Source: Bacteroidetes bacterium SB0662_bin_6
GTDB taxonomy: Bacteria; Bacteroidota; Rhodothermia; Rhodothermales; VXPQ01
Assembly (NCBI GenBank): GCA_009839485.1
Contig: VXPQ01000026.1
Location: 1-37,256, forward strand
Direction: 5' to 3'
DNA: 37,256 nucleotides
The translations under genes and the position numbers were made by a program. The notes below the pieces were generated by a model, which was given only the letters and a program-made list of their open reading frames with translations, was not told the origin of the DNA and ran no database searches. Shown piece by piece: positions 28,531-37,256 of this stretch; within the stretch, counting starts at the first letter, position 1; every line of letters starts with the position of its first letter.

Positions 28531-28814
28531 GGAGCAAGAGGGGAATGTGCTGTTTGCGAGGGGTACGATATGGGCGATTCCGGGCTTCGGTTCCCTCAAT
28601 TTTTGCAATGAGCGAATGGACACAGGATAAGTGAAGGATTAGTGAAGAAAACATTGATATGTATGTGTTTTTCATGTATCATGGAGGCGTACAGACCGCA
28701 GAGGGTGCATACCTTCATTGCTACTGTACCTGTACCTGTGCTTCAAGAACTTATCAGGTGCATTTCTCTCTCATGCACGGCGCTTGTGCTTGGTGGGGTG
28801 GAAGGGTAAACACA
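28531..28814. other. 284 bp divergent spacer between fucD and the giant repeat protein
   Basis: This region must hold the promoters of two divergent genes. Two direct repeats TAAGTGAAGGA (28628-28638) and TTAGTGAAGAA (28639-28649) lie one helical turn apart and could be an operator. The plus-strand frame is open from ATG 28659, but its product up to 28815 is cysteine-rich and unlike protein, so it is treated as leader. No clear -33/-7 pair was found. Confidence 0.4.
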
Positions 28815-31800
28815 GTGAAGAAATGGGGCATGCGTTTGGGGCTTGCTGGTCGCTATACGACCCCAGGTGTCCGCATGGCGTGTGTCCTTGCCGTCGCATT
28901 GCTTGTCTGCATGTCGTCGGCGCAGGCTCAGGTCATTGAGGAAGGGGGATTTCCCGTCAAGGGTCAGAATATCTCCGGGGACTCTTTTTCGTTGTCCTGT
29001 CCGCTTCGCCTTGTTGCCCGGGCGGGTGCATCCATTCCGTTTTCGTGTGCTGCGGAGGGCATATCCGAAGAGGTCGTTCACTACCGTTGGGAGGCGGTCT
29101 CTGGCGATGATCTTCGTCTTTTGAGCGATGCGCAGTCGCAGGCGCCATTCTTTACGGCCCCTGTATCGGGAGGCAGGGAATATACATACCGGTTGACGGC
29201 GATGGCTTCGGGCGTGTACCGGACCGCGACGGTGACGGTCACGGTACAGGGCGCTTCGGGAGAAACGGTTGGAACACCCGGCTTGCAGGATGAATGTGAC
29301 CCTTTGGCGATTCCTGACGAGCCCGGGCAAGGTTGCGTGCCGTGGGAGAGGGAGCCGGAGCCTTTCGGATATGGCCCGGAGTCGGAAGGGGGCTTTCTTT
29401 TTCCGGAAGTGTCCGGCCTGCCTGATCGGGAAGGCGGACTCGATAGTCAGTCGCCTCCCCGCCTGGAGTGCCCTGCGGCGGTGTTTCTGGACGAATTGGA
29501 GACGGGCGCCATCGAGTGCCTCGTATCGGACGCATCGGGAGAAGAGTATCTGGAATACGCATGGGAGCCCGTGGGCAGCACCACGCGGGACTATCTGGAC
29601 AATCCCCGGTTGATTCCCGAGGACAGTCCGACGCCGTCGGTGATTGCTCCGGAGGCGCCCGTGTACGAGACGCTGGAATCGTTCCGTTCGGGGGAGACCA
29701 CGTTTCGTTATCGCTACCGTTTGACGGCGGCCTCCCACGTGACGGGTCTTTCCTCGTCCTCGGAGGTGGAGGTATTCGTATCGAGCAGCCGTCCGAGCGT
29801 GTACTGTCCGCTGGAGGTTGTGGTGGAAGAGGGCGAGACGGTTCCGCTCAATTGCGAGGGGGTGGATCCGCTATCGCTTCGCATGGACTACGATGAGGAC
29901 GCCGCGTCGGTACTGTGGGAATGGGAGGGTCTTTGGGGCACGAGCACGGCGCCTCTTGCCGCGACGGAGTTGTCCTCTCCCTTGTTTACGGCGCCGCCCG
30001 GCAGCGTAGGCAAGGAATACCATTACATTGCGAGCATGACGACGTCGGCTTCGGGCGCGCCGCGGACGGCGAGAAGAAGGGTGACGATCCGGGTGGTCGA
30101 AGGCAGGGAGGGTGCGCAGGCCGCCGGGGACGCTGTGGCGCTGGCGAACAGGGGAAGGGCTCCTTCCATCGACTGCGAAGACAAAACGTTGCCTGATGTA
30201 GTCCCTTATTTCGGGACGCCTTATACCTATGACTTCGTGTGTTCGGTGACGGACGAGCCGGATGACCCCACCTATCTCTGGGAAGGTACGCAGGCGAATA
30301 GGTTGACCAGGACGGACGCGCTCCAAACGACGTTGAACGTTTGGGACATCACGACGAACAACAAGAATCAGCAAACGCAGGATTTCACTTTCACAGTCAC
30401 GCTGTCGGCCCCGGATCTGGATGATGACGTTACGGGAACCGTTACGATCACGCTGGAAGAAAGCCAGATCATCTGCTGGATCACCGACACCTCGAAACTT
30501 CAGCCTTACTATGAAATCGACGTCGACGAAGGTGGCAGTAACGAGGAGCTTACGACCTGCGAAGGGGGCATAACCTCTTTGGACGGGGGGCCCTATGAGT
30601 ACAGATGGCACTCCTCCGTCCCGCCTGCGTCGGGAAATCTTTCGTCGCTGTTGACCAATAGGAATCAACAGACTTCAGAGTTCATACCCCCCGACGATGT
30701 GCCGCGTGACATACAGTACAACATTAGTGTTTATGTAACCAGGCCGTCCGAGCCCCGGAACCCGATTAATTACGATGCGACAAGTTTTCGTGTTACGGTA
30801 GAGAATCTCGATCCGGTGGACTGCCCTGCGGAGTACGCCGTGTATGAAGGAGATCCTGCCTTTACGCTCGACTGTACGGATAAGGGGACGCTGAGCGGCG
30901 TTACCTGGCAGTGGAGCCCCACAACCCATCTGACGAATACCGGCCGGGTCAACCCAACGTTCACCCCGCCGGCTGATGTGCCCTTGGGGGGCGAGCAATA
31001 CAGATACACAGTAAGGGCAATGGTGAGCGGCGTCGATAGGGGAGGGTCTGAAGTGGCAGTGCGTGTGCGGCGCAGAACCCGACTCTCTGTTTTCTGCTCC
31101 CCATCGTCCTATCGGGTATTTGAGGGGGCAGGCACTATTCAGTTGGATTGTGAGGGTCAGGGCGTCGCCGGGGGAAACTATAATTTCGTGTGGACGCCGC
31201 GTGGCAGTACAACCAACACGGATCTTCTGAACCCGTCACAGCACAGGGGAAACAGATCGACCCCCGTGTTCTCTGTGCCGGAGGAAGTGGATAGCGACCA
31301 GACGTACGAGTACACGGTGACCGCATCGCTGGGAAATGCGAGGGACGGTTCGGCGGACGTTACGGTGACGGTGCTGAACAAGCCGTCGTTGGGACTGGTG
31401 TGTACGTCTCCCCCTCCGGTGTACGAGGGGGATCCGGACTTCGATCTGGACTGCACGGCCTCGAATGCTCCGGTGGGTTCCGACTATGAATACGAATGGA
31501 CGGGACGCGGCAGTACTGTGGTCCCGGGTAGATTGAACAGCACGACCATTGAGGATCCGACGTTCAGGGTGCCGGACAATGTGGACAGCGACGAGACGTA
31601 CGAATACAGGCTGAAGGTAAGCGCCGACAATGCAGAACCTGATTCGGCGGATGTTACGGTGACGGTGCGGAACAAGGCGGAGATAACGGTCACGTGCACA
31701 GATCATTCCCCCGAGGTGTATGAGGGGGCGGCCGACATTACGCTGAACTGCTCGGCTACGGGTGTGCCTCAGGGTACCACACCCGACTACGAATGGACGG

Positions 31801-34800
31801 CGGGGAATGCATTGGACCTGTCGCTTTTGAGTAACAAGGATGTGGCTTCGCCGACATTCTATGTGCCGGACAATGTGGACAGCGACAAGACCTATGCGTA
31901 CACGCTGACCGTCTCTGCGCAGGGTGTGCATGATGAGACAGCCAACGTGACGGTGACGGTGCTGAACAAGCTCCCGATAACGGTCACGTGCACGGATTCT
32001 TCCCCCGAGGTGTACGAGGGGGCGGCCGACATTACGCTGAACTGTTCGGCTTCGGGCGGGCCTTCGGGTGCTACCTACAACTACGTGTGGACGGGACGGA
32101 GCGGTACCGTGGTCCCGGGCAGGTTGAGCAGTGCGACCGTCAGGAATCCGACGTTCGATGTGCCGGCTGATGTGGCCGGCGACGAGACCTACGAGTACAC
32201 GCTGACCGTCACGGCGGACAATGCGGAGGACGGCGCCGCCGACGTGACCGTGACGGTGCTTGACAAGAAACCGCTGAATGTGGCATGCGCAACGCCTGCT
32301 CCGGTGTTTGAGGGTGCGCCGGACTTCGCTCTGGATTGCACGGCGTCGGGGGAACCTCCGGGTTCCACCATCCAATACGCCTGGACGTCGCGCGGCAATA
32401 CGCCGAACACGGACAGGTTGAGCAGTACGACGGTTGAGGATCCGACGTTCGACGTGCCGGCGAGCGTGCCCGCGGAAGAAACGTACGAGTACACGCTTAC
32501 GGTATCGGCCGAGAATGCGATAGACGCCGCGGCCGGGGTAACGGTGAGGGTGCTTAAACTCGGATCCATTGCCCTCATTTGCGAATCGCCTCCCCTGGTG
32601 TACGAGGGGGCGGAAGATTTCGCTCTGGACTGCTCGGTTTCAGGGGGTACGGGGAATACCGACTATACGTACGCGTGGACGGCCAGAGGCGAGACGCAGG
32701 GCACATCGCTGCTCAGCAACGTGAACATTGCTTCACCGACGTTCCGGGTGCCTGACAGTATAACCGAAACGACGACATACGAGTACCTGTTGACGGCGAG
32801 CGCGCAGGGGGTGCGAGACGCGACGGCGCCGGTTTCGGTGACGGTGCTCAACCGCGCTACGCTGGATATCGACTGCGTATCTCCCCTTTCAGTGTACGAA
32901 GGTTCGGCGGACTTCGCGCTGGACTGCACGGCTTCGGGTGCGCCTGAGGGCTCCACCGGCTACGAGTACATCTGGACGGCGCGGGGCAGTACGGCGAACA
33001 CGAACCTGCTCTCGGATGTGACGCTCCTTACCCCGACCTTCCGTGTGCCGGATAGGCTGGACGAGACGACGAGGTACGAGTACCTTTTGACGGTCAGTGC
33101 GGAGAATTCGGATGACGGTTCGGCGGCGGTGACGGTGACAGTGCTCGACTACGGCGCCTTAAGCGTGGTATGTGCGGATCCGCCTTTGGTATTTGCGGGC
33201 TCGGAGAACTTCGATCTGGGTTGCGAGGCGTCGGGTGCTCCGGAGGGTTCCGAATACACGTATGTCTGGGCGGCGCGGGGCTCGACGCCGAACACGGATC
33301 TTTTGATAGACGGCACGGACGGCCCCACACCGACGTTTGCAGTACCGGCGGAGGTGGATGAGATAACGACGTACGAGTACCTTTTGACGGTCAGTGCGGA
33401 TAGGGTGGATGACGGTTCGGCGGAGGTGACGGTGACGGTGCTTAAAGAGGGTGAGATACACGTGGCATGCGTGGATCCGCCTTCGGTCTATGAGGGCTCG
33501 GCAGACTTTGAACTGGACTGCTCGGCTTTGGGCGCTCCGGAGGGTTTTTCCTACGAATACGCATGGACGGCGCGCGGCAGTACGGTGAACACGGACCTGC
33601 TTTCGGATGTGAATTCTCTTACTCCCACATTCCTTGTGCCGGATGACTTGCCCGGGACCACTACCTACGAGTACCTGCTGACGGTCTCGGCGGAGAATTC
33701 GGATGACGGTTCGGCGGAGGTCACGGTGACGGTTTTGAACAGGGAAGTGCTGACCCTGACGTGCGTGGAACACCGTTCCGTATACGAAGGATCGGAGGAC
33801 TTCGAGATGGATTGTTCGGCTTCGGGCACACGTTCACCCTCCGGGTACACGTACATCTGGACGCCGTCGGGCGATACGCAGGATACGTCGCTGCTCAGTG
33901 CGACGGACATTGCTTCGCCGACCTTCTACGTCCCCGATGATCTCGACGAAACGACGACATACGAGTATCTGCTGACAGTCTCGGCGGAAAATGCGATTTC
34001 CGACGCAAGGGAGGTGTCGGTGACGGTGCTGAACAAGCCTGCACTTGCGGTGGTATGCGCGGATCCCGGCTCGGTATACGAGGGCTCGGAAGACCTTGCG
34101 TTCGATTGCTCGGCCTCGGGCGCTCCGGGAGACAATCCTCAGTACACATATGCCTGGACGGGTCGGGGCGATACGCAGGGCACGGCCTTGCTTAGCGCAA
34201 CGGACATTGCTTCGCCGACCTTCTACGTGCCGGAGGATCTGGATGCGACGACGGAATACGAGTACCTGCTGACGGTCTCAGCGGAGAATGCCGTGGATGC
34301 GATGGCAGAGGTGACCGTGACCGTGCTTGACATTCCACCGCTTGCTTTCACGGACGATTCGATAGACGGTCGGGTATTCATCTTTACGGTAGGCGAGGCC
34401 ATTGCGGATATTCTTCTTCCGGAAGCCACAGGCGGTTGGCTCCCGTATACCTATACGCTCGCGCCGGTCTTGCCTCCGGGACTTGAATTTGACGATCCGA
34501 CGCGGACGATCTCCGGGACGCCTTTGGAGATAAGTTCCCGGTCTGAATACACCTGGCAGGTTGTCGACGCCAAAGCGCAGGCAGTGCAGATTGCGTTCTT
34601 CATAGAGGTGGTGCCTGTGCCCGTGGCGGAATTGCTGTCTCTTGGCGTAACGATAAGCGCGTCGTCTCTGGATTTCGGCGTGCAGTCGGCGGACACCGAA
34701 GTGTCGCTCGATCCGATGACCGATCGGATATCGACCTACATATCAGGTCCCTACCACAGGGGCCGCATGACGCTTGCGCCGGATGGTAGCGAACCCCTTG

Positions 34801-35996
34801 ATGAGAACGGAGAGATGAACCTCTCCATTGAGCTGGTCTCCCCGGTCGTGCTCAAACGTCGGGATGCTGTCGAGCCATCTTCGCTCGTGCTTACGCCCGG
34901 TTGGTCCCTTGCAGCCTCGTGCGAGCAGCTCTCATCTCAGACGGTAGGGGGTCTGTATACGGAGGTGGCGCTATCGGAGGACGACTGCCGGCTGCTTCGT
35001 TTCGGCGGCGAACTGGACCTTACGGGCGCGCCTTCGGGGCAGTATGCGGGGAATATGGACCTCATTCTGCGTTCGGGCGAGCGCGAGGAGACGTTCTCGG
35101 TGGAGGTGTCGGTGACGGTCGTTCCCGCACAGCGTGTGATCACGATAGGTCCGGGCGGGGTGCGCTTCAGCACATCGCGCGAGCTTCCTGCGGGCTTGAC
35201 CGAGGAACAGAACCTGAGCATCTACCCCGATGTGGCGTTTTTGACCGAGGAGAAGCCCCACGGGGTGTTCGAGCTTTCGAATCCGTCGCTCGTTCCACTG
35301 GAGGTATCCGTGTCGGCCCGTTTCGGGCATACGGAGGCGACGGAGAATGGGCGGGAGATAGTGGTAGAGGATGTGTCGGCATCTCGTCTTGGCGATTTGT
35401 CGTCCGTGGTGGACATCCATCCGGGGATGCTGGTGCTGATGCCCGGCGAGAAGGGCCTTATTCGTTACGGGGTCGAAGAGGAAGCGCATGCGGCGATGGC
35501 CGAGCAGGGCTACGCGGCGTTCTTCGACGTTGTGTCCGTTCCACGTCAGTACGCAGATCTGGATCAAATGCCCGAGGAGGTTACAGGGGACCGCACGGCC
35601 CGTGTGACGATGCGTGTTCCTGGAGTGTACGTACCTGGAGAAGGGGCCTCGCAGCTTAGGGCTCGGCTGCTATCGATCTCGTATGTGGGTACGATGTCGG
35701 CGACGTTCCTGTTGGAGACGCTGGATCATCCGTTTGTAGGCGAGGTGGTGGCCTACGACGGGGACGGTCGTGAGTTGGGCCGACGCGAGACGCTGGTGCA
35801 TACGCGCAGCCGCGTACGTATCCCGTTGGATCGCATGCCGGAAGAAAGGTCTGTGTTTTTGCGTTTTGAGCCCCGTGGATCGGGCCGGGCGCCTTTGCCG
35901 ACATCGGTTGAGTGGAATGCGCCGCGTAGAGACATAGGCGATGCGGGAGACAAAGCCCGCACAGGGCCCCCGGCAACGCTTGTCCGGAAACCGTGA
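28815..35996 (+). CDS. Giant secreted Ig/PKD-like repeat protein with DUF4402-like and PapD-like C-terminus
   Basis: A 2393-residue exported protein. GTG at 28815 is preferred because GGAAGGG (28800-28806) lies 8 bases upstream and the product then starts with a normal signal peptide (cleavage near SSAQAQ, about residue 39). Order of parts: five divergent beta-sandwich domains (about 40-660) split by a proline-rich linker with two cysteines (ECDPLAIPDEPGQGCVPWE); a sixth divergent unit; an array of eleven near-identical units (about 756-1840); a putative-Ig domain (PPGLEFDDPTRTISGTP); a DUF4402-like domain (SSLDFGVQSADTEVSL, ending GQYAGNMDLIL); and a PapD-like domain (GVFELSNPSLVPLEVSV, then LMPGEKGLIRYGV). 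Units resemble K319L/PKD-type domains. No LPXTG or Por-secretion tail is evident. A surface adhesin, stalk or appendage role is inferred. A paralogue follows 10 bp later. Confidence 0.85.
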   Translation: MKKWGMRLGLAGRYTTPGVRMACVLAVALLVCMSSAQAQVIEEGGFPVKGQNISGDSFSLSCPLRLVARAGASIPFSCAAEGISEEVVHYRWEAVSGDDLRLLSDAQSQAPFFTAPVSGGREYTYRLTAMASGVYRTATVTVTVQGASGETVGTPGLQDECDPLAIPDEPGQGCVPWEREPEPFGYGPESEGGFLFPEVSGLPDREGGLDSQSPPRLECPAAVFLDELETGAIECLVSDASGEEYLEYAWEPVGSTTRDYLDNPRLIPEDSPTPSVIAPEAPVYETLESFRSGETTFRYRYRLTAASHVTGLSSSSEVEVFVSSSRPSVYCPLEVVVEEGETVPLNCEGVDPLSLRMDYDEDAASVLWEWEGLWGTSTAPLAATELSSPLFTAPPGSVGKEYHYIASMTTSASGAPRTARRRVTIRVVEGREGAQAAGDAVALANRGRAPSIDCEDKTLPDVVPYFGTPYTYDFVCSVTDEPDDPTYLWEGTQANRLTRTDALQTTLNVWDITTNNKNQQTQDFTFTVTLSAPDLDDDVTGTVTITLEESQIICWITDTSKLQPYYEIDVDEGGSNEELTTCEGGITSLDGGPYEYRWHSSVPPASGNLSSLLTNRNQQTSEFIPPDDVPRDIQYNISVYVTRPSEPRNPINYDATSFRVTVENLDPVDCPAEYAVYEGDPAFTLDCTDKGTLSGVTWQWSPTTHLTNTGRVNPTFTPPADVPLGGEQYRYTVRAMVSGVDRGGSEVAVRVRRRTRLSVFCSPSSYRVFEGAGTIQLDCEGQGVAGGNYNFVWTPRGSTTNTDLLNPSQHRGNRSTPVFSVPEEVDSDQTYEYTVTASLGNARDGSADVTVTVLNKPSLGLVCTSPPPVYEGDPDFDLDCTASNAPVGSDYEYEWTGRGSTVVPGRLNSTTIEDPTFRVPDNVDSDETYEYRLKVSADNAEPDSADVTVTVRNKAEITVTCTDHSPEVYEGAADITLNCSATGVPQGTTPDYEWTAGNALDLSLLSNKDVASPTFYVPDNVDSDKTYAYTLTVSAQGVHDETANVTVTVLNKLPITVTCTDSSPEVYEGAADITLNCSASGGPSGATYNYVWTGRSGTVVPGRLSSATVRNPTFDVPADVAGDETYEYTLTVTADNAEDGAADVTVTVLDKKPLNVACATPAPVFEGAPDFALDCTASGEPPGSTIQYAWTSRGNTPNTDRLSSTTVEDPTFDVPASVPAEETYEYTLTVSAENAIDAAAGVTVRVLKLGSIALICESPPLVYEGAEDFALDCSVSGGTGNTDYTYAWTARGETQGTSLLSNVNIASPTFRVPDSITETTTYEYLLTASAQGVRDATAPVSVTVLNRATLDIDCVSPLSVYEGSADFALDCTASGAPEGSTGYEYIWTARGSTANTNLLSDVTLLTPTFRVPDRLDETTRYEYLLTVSAENSDDGSAAVTVTVLDYGALSVVCADPPLVFAGSENFDLGCEASGAPEGSEYTYVWAARGSTPNTDLLIDGTDGPTPTFAVPAEVDEITTYEYLLTVSADRVDDGSAEVTVTVLKEGEIHVACVDPPSVYEGSADFELDCSALGAPEGFSYEYAWTARGSTVNTDLLSDVNSLTPTFLVPDDLPGTTTYEYLLTVSAENSDDGSAEVTVTVLNREVLTLTCVEHRSVYEGSEDFEMDCSASGTRSPSGYTYIWTPSGDTQDTSLLSATDIASPTFYVPDDLDETTTYEYLLTVSAENAISDAREVSVTVLNKPALAVVCADPGSVYEGSEDLAFDCSASGAPGDNPQYTYAWTGRGDTQGTALLSATDIASPTFYVPEDLDATTEYEYLLTVSAENAVDAMAEVTVTVLDIPPLAFTDDSIDGRVFIFTVGEAIADILLPEATGGWLPYTYTLAPVLPPGLEFDDPTRTISGTPLEISSRSEYTWQVVDAKAQAVQIAFFIEVVPVPVAELLSLGVTISASSLDFGVQSADTEVSLDPMTDRISTYISGPYHRGRMTLAPDGSEPLDENGEMNLSIELVSPVVLKRRDAVEPSSLVLTPGWSLAASCEQLSSQTVGGLYTEVALSEDDCRLLRFGGELDLTGAPSGQYAGNMDLILRSGEREETFSVEVSVTVVPAQRVITIGPGGVRFSTSRELPAGLTEEQNLSIYPDVAFLTEEKPHGVFELSNPSLVPLEVSVSARFGHTEATENGREIVVEDVSASRLGDLSSVVDIHPGMLVLMPGEKGLIRYGVEEEAHAAMAEQGYAAFFDVVSVPRQYADLDQMPEEVTGDRTARVTMRVPGVYVPGEGASQLRARLLSISYVGTMSATFLLETLDHPFVGEVVAYDGDGRELGRRETLVHTRSRVRIPLDRMPEERSVFLRFEPRGSGRAPLPTSVEWNAPRRDIGDAGDKARTGPPATLVRKP
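31080..34334 (+). repeat. Eleven-unit in-frame tandem repeat, about 296 bp each
   Basis: The conserved VYEG-type codons recur at about 31115, 31420, 31716, 32010, 32304, 32598, 32892, 33189, 33486, 33780 and 34074, giving periods of 294-305 bp. Each unit follows a pattern of Cys, about 16 residues with VYEGS-DF, LDC, then YEY-WT-RGST, LLS, PTF-VPD, TYEYLLTVSAEN and VTVTVL. The two cysteines per unit are kept in every unit. Units 3 and 4 of the array share long nearly identical DNA (31681-31770 against 31975-32064). Confidence 0.93.
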
Positions 35997-36006
35997 GGGG
36001 TTGCTC

Positions 36007-37256
36007 ATGAAGCATGCGGGGCACAGCCGGATGCGTCTGGTGCGGTATATTCTGTCGGCGTTTGCCTTTTCGGGGCTGCTCTTCGCATCTTCGGTGCACG
36101 CTCAGGTGATTCGGGAAGAGGGTTTTCCGCAAAAGGGCGGTGTTGCGGAGGAATCGGTCAGGGCGCCCGTTGTGCAAGAGGAGTGCGATCCTTTTACGGT
36201 TCCTGACAAGTTTGGTGAAAGTTGCGTGCCGCGGGAGAAGGAGCCGGATCCTTTAGGGTTCGATCCGGAAGCACCCGGCGTTTCGGATCGTCCGTCACCT
36301 GGGTTTGCGGCGCCTCCTCGCCTCGAATGTCCGGTGGCGGTGTTTCTGGAGGAGTTGGAGACGGGACAAGTCGAGTGTCACGCATGGGATGCTTCGGGGG
36401 AGGAATACCTTGATTATTTCTGGGAGCCTGTAGGCAGTACGACACGGGACTATCTGGACAATCCTCGTTTAGTCCCGGAGGACAGTCCTCATCCGTTTGT
36501 GATCGCTCCGGAGGCGCCGGCGTACGAGACGCTGGAGTCGTTCCGTTCGGGGGAAACGACGTTTCGTTACCGGTACCGGTTGACAGCTACTTCCCGCGTG
36601 ACGGGTTTGTCGTCACATGAGGAGGTGGAGGTGTACGTATCGAGCAGCCGTCCGAGCGTGTATTGTCCGTTGGAGGTGGTGGTGGAAGAGGGCGATACGG
36701 TCACGCTCGATTGCGAGGGGGTGGACCCGCTGTCTTTCCGCATGGACTACGAGGACGAAGCGGCGGTGCTATGGGAGTGGGAAGGTTTATGGGGCACGAG
36801 TACAGAGCCTCTTGCTGCGACGGAGCAGTCCTCTCCCTTGTTTACGGCGCCGCCCGGCAGTGCGGGCAAGGAGTACCATTACATTGCAAGCATGACGTCG
36901 TCGGCTTCGGCCGCGCCCCGCACGGCGCGGCGGAGGGTAACGGTGAGGGTCGCTGATACGGAGGGAGCGACACAGGCTGCAGCAGCCGGTTTGGCGCTGG
37001 CGAACAAGGGAAGTGCCCCTGGCATCACGTGCAATGATGCCGAGATATACGAAGCCGCGGCTGATTTCACGCTGGACTGTTCGGTGACGGATGAGCCTTC
37101 CGGTGCTACGTACGCGTGGACGGCTCGCGGCAGTACGTCGGGTACGAGCGAGCTAAGCAGTACGACCGTTCTGAAACCGACATTTTCCGTACCGGACGAT
37201 ATAGATGAGTCGGGCGGAGCGGATAAGGACTACGAATACACGGTGACGATGACGGC
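36007..37256 (+). CDS. Paralogous secreted Ig/PKD-like repeat protein, 3' end beyond window
   Basis: Open reading frame from ATG 36007 to the window edge (416 residues, no stop). GAGGGG at 35995-36000, overlapping the previous stop, is a good Shine-Dalgarno site. A signal peptide ends near SSVHA; the mature start QVIREEGFPQKGG parallels AQVIEEGGFPVKG of the upstream gene. It lacks the first beta-domain of its neighbour and goes directly to the two-cysteine linker (EECDPFTVPD, SCVPREKEP). It then carries the two domains matching 29457-30110 of the neighbour at high DNA identity, and next a unit of the eleven-unit type (TCNDAEIYEAAADFTLDCSV). Same strand, 10 bp gap: an operon of tandem duplicates. 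Total length and C-terminus are unknown. Confidence 0.88.
   Translation, partial: MKHAGHSRMRLVRYILSAFAFSGLLFASSVHAQVIREEGFPQKGGVAEESVRAPVVQEECDPFTVPDKFGESCVPREKEPDPLGFDPEAPGVSDRPSPGFAAPPRLECPVAVFLEELETGQVECHAWDASGEEYLDYFWEPVGSTTRDYLDNPRLVPEDSPHPFVIAPEAPAYETLESFRSGETTFRYRYRLTATSRVTGLSSHEEVEVYVSSSRPSVYCPLEVVVEEGDTVTLDCEGVDPLSFRMDYEDEAAVLWEWEGLWGTSTEPLAATEQSSPLFTAPPGSAGKEYHYIASMTSSASAAPRTARRRVTVRVADTEGATQAAAAGLALANKGSAPGITCNDAEIYEAAADFTLDCSVTDEPSGATYAWTARGSTSGTSELSSTTVLKPTFSVPDDIDESGGADKDYEYTVTMT

Follow-up and report, generated by a model that had tools for sequence, protein, structure and literature searches.

What kind of structure would be specified by a giant gene with a long array of cysteine-paired Ig-like domains, what holds each domain together, and by what route could so long a chain leave the cell? 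These questions are raised by the end of the window (the whole 37,256 nt stretch analysed, contig VXPQ01000026.1 of the Rhodothermales genome SB0662_bin_6). The open reading frame for the putative giant surface protein runs on the forward strand, as do all window features given below, from 28659 to 35996, and has 2445 aa as listed. Its true start is probably the GTG at 28815, which is preceded by GGAAGGG at 28800–28806, and from there the protein has about 2,390 residues. What reads by eye as a hydrophobic N-terminal signal peptide, VRMACVLAVALLVCMSSAQAQ (28815–28931), is followed by five degenerate Ig-like domains between 28980 and 30740, identified from unit HMM matches and cysteine positions, with a cysteine pair 16–28 residues apart in each (28980–29249, 29451–29780, 29790–30101, 30174–30455 and about 30470–30740). 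Then comes the regular array. Its unit 1 (30807–31079) scores 90.9 bits with the unit HMM and has the same cysteine pair and VYEG, and units 2 to 12 (31080–34331), assigned by Pfam, unit HMM and alignment, are cysteine-paired K319L-like PKD/Ig domains of 96–102 aa. Aligned on their cysteines, the twelve units start at 30807, 31080, 31386, 31680, 31974, 32271, 32565, 32859, 33156, 33453, 33747 and 34041. A He_PIG-type Ig-like domain (34335–34652; PF05345, E 3.8e-6), without the cysteine pair, separates the array from a conserved C-terminal module of 447 aa.

A sequence-only reading had described eleven units with a strict period of 98–99 residues between 31080 and 34334. Those eleven units are indeed there, though as units 2 to 12 of an array that is longer, with the degenerate domains ahead of it. 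Its regularity also stands (the first start-to-start interval is 306 bp and the others 294–297 bp). Each unit has, as described, two cysteines 17–18 residues apart that bracket V[YF][EA]G. The profile search that had been suggested as a check gave, for the whole protein, K319L-like_PKD (PF22352) with E 1.3e-60 in 12 stretches, and the 201.8 bits are well over the curated cut-off of 27; single units, at 20.7–37.6 bits, lie around that cut-off.

How strict is the cysteine pair? An HMM built from the 12 window units was used to collect complete units from five genomes of the genus, this one among them, and from four of family f15. The resulting 158 complete cysteine-type units are from 24 gene pieces, two of which overlap in one gene of the same-genus genome G003, so that 1–2 near-identical units may be counted twice. 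All 158 carry the pair and none has a further cysteine; in 149 both cysteines are at the aligned columns, and in the other 9 the first comes slightly before the start of the alignment. Most often the two are 17 residues apart (104 units), with a range of 16–20 among the aligned ones. In contrast, the 54 ordinary K319L-like units taken from G003 and G004, both of the same genus, are all free of cysteine, which agrees with the earlier statement that ordinary PKD/K319L domains lack such a pair. Conservation of the pair is not due to chance, and from these two counts the cysteine-type units are therefore a clean subtype of the K319L-like units. In a phylum sample of 296 genomes, searched at E 1e-8, the subtype was found only in this genome and the four f15 genomes, which belong to the same order (the remaining same-genus carriers come from a separate search and not from that sample). 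No relatives of the units were found in the viral contigs searched.

Whether the two cysteines of a unit are bonded to each other was approached through structure prediction, as had been proposed. AlphaFold was run on units 10–12 with an alignment limited to sequences from the window and from L020, a locus of the sister species (G005, MAG IP30a_bin.15), and gave an Ig fold with mean pLDDT 93.5 and pTM 0.67. The predicted limits of strands A and B are 3–6 with 23–26, 101–103 with 122–124, and 199–202 with 219–222. An antiparallel A–B register, as we infer it from these limits, would set C6 and C23, C104 and C121, and C202 and C219 face to face. For the idea of a disulfide-locked variant, then, the strict pair and the modelled register in all three units are in favour, and the bond itself, an intra-domain A–B disulfide in each unit, is likely. 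An alternative is that the cysteines are not paired within the unit but link adjacent units to each other, coordinate a metal or remain unbonded. The cysteines of adjacent units are also regularly spaced, by about 81 residues, as this alternative would allow. However, the model places the two cysteines of one unit opposite each other, each degenerate domain keeps its own pair though the distance between one pair and the next ranges from 78 to 107 residues, and neither a histidine nor an additional cysteine is conserved alongside the pair in the 158-unit alignment. Pairing other than within the unit is thus improbable.

Matches to the modelled fold from Foldseek and VIA-align include cadherin, titin, Ig chains, an ice-binding adhesin and GhpA, the last (PDB 9fly) being the top VIA-align row with Z 10.7. 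Because Z values near 10 are spread across many unrelated chains, the GhpA and cadherin rows are taken to indicate shared arrangement of the predicted domains only. They fit the extended extracellular stalk that had been envisaged.

If the likely intra-domain bond is accepted, the stalk would consist of 12 regular and 5 degenerate K319L-like PKD Ig domains, each with one A–B disulfide. A precedent for a function is available from the fimbrial subunit DraE, whose conserved A–B disulfide stabilises the fold by ~50 kJ/mol and in simulation alters which strand yields under pull (PMC5625045). In the window protein the staple would, by the same token, hold the first strand of every domain to the core, and pulling could then not easily peel off strand A. 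The disulfides would form after secretion, with a VKOR-type oxidase as a possible catalyst. Such an oxidase is encoded in all six genus members, but one of these, G004, has only cysteine-less arrays, so that its presence indicates capacity only and as specific support for the disulfide it was set aside.

The near-identical DNA that had been attributed to neighbouring units, and the recent duplication or gene conversion deduced from it, are not borne out in the window gene. DNA identity over all unit pairs is 58–75% (61–75% for neighbours), protein identity between units is 31–73%, no exact match between units exceeds 30 bp and Tandem Repeats Finder reported no array over the units. Comparison with the sister species is more telling. 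Units u4–u10 match the same-position sister units with 85–94% DNA identity, which exceeds every within-gene value, and recent duplication is rejected there; u11–u12, at 76%, are the closest call. From these same-position identities most units appear to be older than the split of the two species. For u2–u3 (31080–31679) identity to the sister ortholog is 59–63%, which suggests either a replaced segment or faster divergence. An additional unit is present in the sister ortholog around u11–u12, and unit number, to judge from the sequences, shifts slowly. The expectation that copy number varies is thus partly upheld. That the window array arose by recent duplication, or by gene conversion still in progress, is very improbable, even with this extra unit in its favour; the description does hold for G003, a one-contig genome with nine units of 97–99% DNA identity, and partly for G002, with four of 88–96%. 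Duplication would seem, then, to occur in the family, and not recently in the window gene.

The gene is not alone of its kind. The 3' end of the giant gene overlaps the start of a tandem paralogue (35941), which has a putative signal peptide of its own, is missing the first Ig-like domain and is truncated at 37256, where the contig stops. This genome has at least five complete copies of the C-terminal module, against one in G003, and additional fragments where contigs end, and so appears to contain several paralogous giant genes. Many of its contigs stop within a giant-gene copy (C10, C31, C32, C36, C37, C38, C45, C59 and C65; L006, L009–L016), and the multi-copy family probably broke the assembly.

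A clue to the export route is the C-terminal module. Its first half (34653–35130) is DUF4402-like, as judged from homologues and from separate genes in f15 genomes, with a cysteine pair 22 residues apart; PF14352 was detected in 5 of 13 homologues and not in the window copy itself. The second half (35130–35996) is homologous to a stand-alone protein of 255–290 aa encoded upstream of an usher-like gene in f15 genomes. In three of these (G029, G044 and G056) the two halves match separate consecutive genes, the DUF4402-like one and then that for the 255–290 aa protein, after which comes the gene for an outer-membrane protein. At L030, L031 and L039, also f15, genes for DUF4402-like proteins and for the 255–290 aa protein form a separate operon with one for an usher-like protein that is shorter (~755 aa). 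This may be a pilus type not yet described; the literature searched had nothing on DUF4402 together with ushers. Neither the sequence of the C-terminal module nor its profiles gave a meaningful match in the PDB, and its model has pLDDT 37, from an alignment of two sequences.

The identity of the outer-membrane protein was addressed by profile comparison. A classical usher was rejected, as PF00577 has no match in this genome and none among 12 homologues. With hhalign, the profile of the protein reached a probability of 64% (E 6.6e-5) against five E. coli K-12 ushers over 460 columns that include a plug-like stretch, and the controls FhuA and BamA, which were single sequences, gave 0.1% each. 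Against FimD alone the figure was 7.7%, in a different region. There is moderate support from these comparisons for calling the protein usher-like. A PapD-like chaperone was considered for the second half of the C-terminal module, and neither profile comparison nor Pfam nor PDB supports it: hhalign against fimbrial chaperones gave 2.5% and 0.5%, values from a weak profile that do not exclude the fold, and Pfam and PDB searches with this half had no match. The label chaperone would thus be a guess, based only on the order of the genes and on length.

Homologues of the usher-like protein, of about 860 aa, are encoded in this genome and in 10 of 59 relatives (G001, G002, G003, G005, G019, G029, G038, G044, G050 and G056). 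Among them is every searched relative that has cysteine-type arrays, eight in all (G001, G002, G003, G005, G019, G038, G050 and G056), an association between related genomes that is not a count of independent events. G004, of the same genus and with cysteine-less arrays only, is without the gene; G029 and G044 have the usher-like protein and the separate genes, and no cysteine-type arrays. Directly downstream of the window copy, up to the contig end, is the second giant gene rather than an usher-like gene. In ten fetched neighbourhoods, however, usher-like and giant genes are on the same strand and mostly no more than about 5 kb apart. They directly adjoin in G003 and G038, and are separated by about 0.5–0.7 kb in G001 and G002, about 2.5 kb in G056, and about 4–5 kb in contig C38 of this genome, in G005 and at both G019 loci; in G050 the distance is about 10 kb, on the upstream side.

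Other genes accompany the pair. Directly after the usher-like gene in 9 of the 10 neighbourhoods is an ExbB/MotA-like gene (PF01618, E 2.6e-6), the exception being G056, whose stretch extends only a short way on that side. Its product, a channel protein of ~235 aa (L142 4437–5144, and homologues), prompts one to ask whether the system is energised. Six of the ten stretches (this genome, G005, G003, both G019 loci and G038) also encode a TPR lipoprotein homologue, as do the G050 and G056 genomes elsewhere; none was found in G001 or G002. The lipoprotein gene is on the opposite side of the giant gene in G003 and G038, and gene order is thus not fixed. Between the giant gene and the TPR lipoprotein gene, several neighbourhoods encode two more conserved proteins, one of about 267 aa and one of about 342 aa (L142 9776–12112; L145 6022–8198). 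Neither has a Pfam match, and the larger has, by eye, one N-terminal membrane segment.

On balance the product is rather probably a giant adhesin or surface fibre with a signal peptide and a disulfide-stapled Ig stalk, whose C-terminal module is handed to, or anchored at, the usher-like pore. That the module would pass the chain to the pore, or anchor it there, is suggested because it is homologous to the genes that precede the usher-like protein in relatives. The main rival for the export route has the same stapled stalk exported by type 9 secretion, like other giant surface proteins of Bacteroidota and relatives, with the usher-like locus no more than a neighbour. Large multi-domain Ig proteins are commonly type 9 cargo, and SprA is encoded in all six genus members. 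Yet no sorting-domain model is among the NCBIfam matches at E up to 1, and the C-terminal module has its homologues beside the usher-like gene, which tracks the cysteine-type arrays. Type 9 export is on this evidence unlikely, and the usher-like pore is the route preferred. A bolder, and quite doubtful, extension of the usher-like route is that this is an undescribed Rhodothermales system in which a single covalent chain of stapled Ig domains replaces an assembled pilus, carries a fused DUF4402-like pilin and possibly a chaperone-like module, and exits via the usher-like pore beside the ExbB/MotA-like channel, often near the TPR lipoprotein; export or movement might then be energised.

If the main reading is right, each domain of a giant stalk made of one chain would bear the A–B staple of pilus subunits, which would be a natural test of the bond's protective effect under pull, and a genome without a classical usher would have an usher-like locus with a probable substrate that bears a fused pilin-like module. 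As to what the chain might adhere to, the sample name of MAG IP30a_bin.15 is also that of a coral-skeleton metagenome from Isopora palifera (PMC11070183, PMC9868349), which makes attachment to host or mineral a sensible hypothesis.

How does this compare with what is known? The units share with PF22352 the V-E-G turn, the tryptophan and the Y-x-Y core, and differ in having one cysteine each on predicted strands A and B, whereas the ordinary units of the genus are cysteine-less. Classical Ig domains (PF13895, PF13927) are also among the Pfam matches of the window protein. Their hallmark is a disulfide between strands B and F; in the 158 units cysteines are only at the A and B positions, and the strand-F region has an invariant tyrosine and no cysteine. 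The second cysteine of the unit occupies the place of the strand-B cysteine of Ig domains, the partner being on strand A instead of F. GhpA of Aureispira (PDB 9fly) is likewise a giant Ig-like array forming an extracellular stalk. So, from its abstract, is SiiE of Salmonella a very long chain of Ig-like domains serving as extracellular stalk, though with type 1 secretion and calcium-binding domains, and with no cysteine pair mentioned in that abstract (PMC5466336). An A–B disulfide in an Ig-like fold is already known from fimbrial subunits, and with chaperone–usher subunits such as DraE (PMC5625045) the window units would share that bond, an extracellular adhesive chain and the link to an usher-like pore. 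Fimbrial subunits have an Ig fold without strand G that is completed by a donor strand; in contrast, each modelled window unit owns its last strand (86–95, for example), and the units are complete domains of one covalent chain, without donor-strand exchange and with no sequence relation shown. The novelty lies mainly in the strict cysteine subtype and in its link to the usher-like locus.
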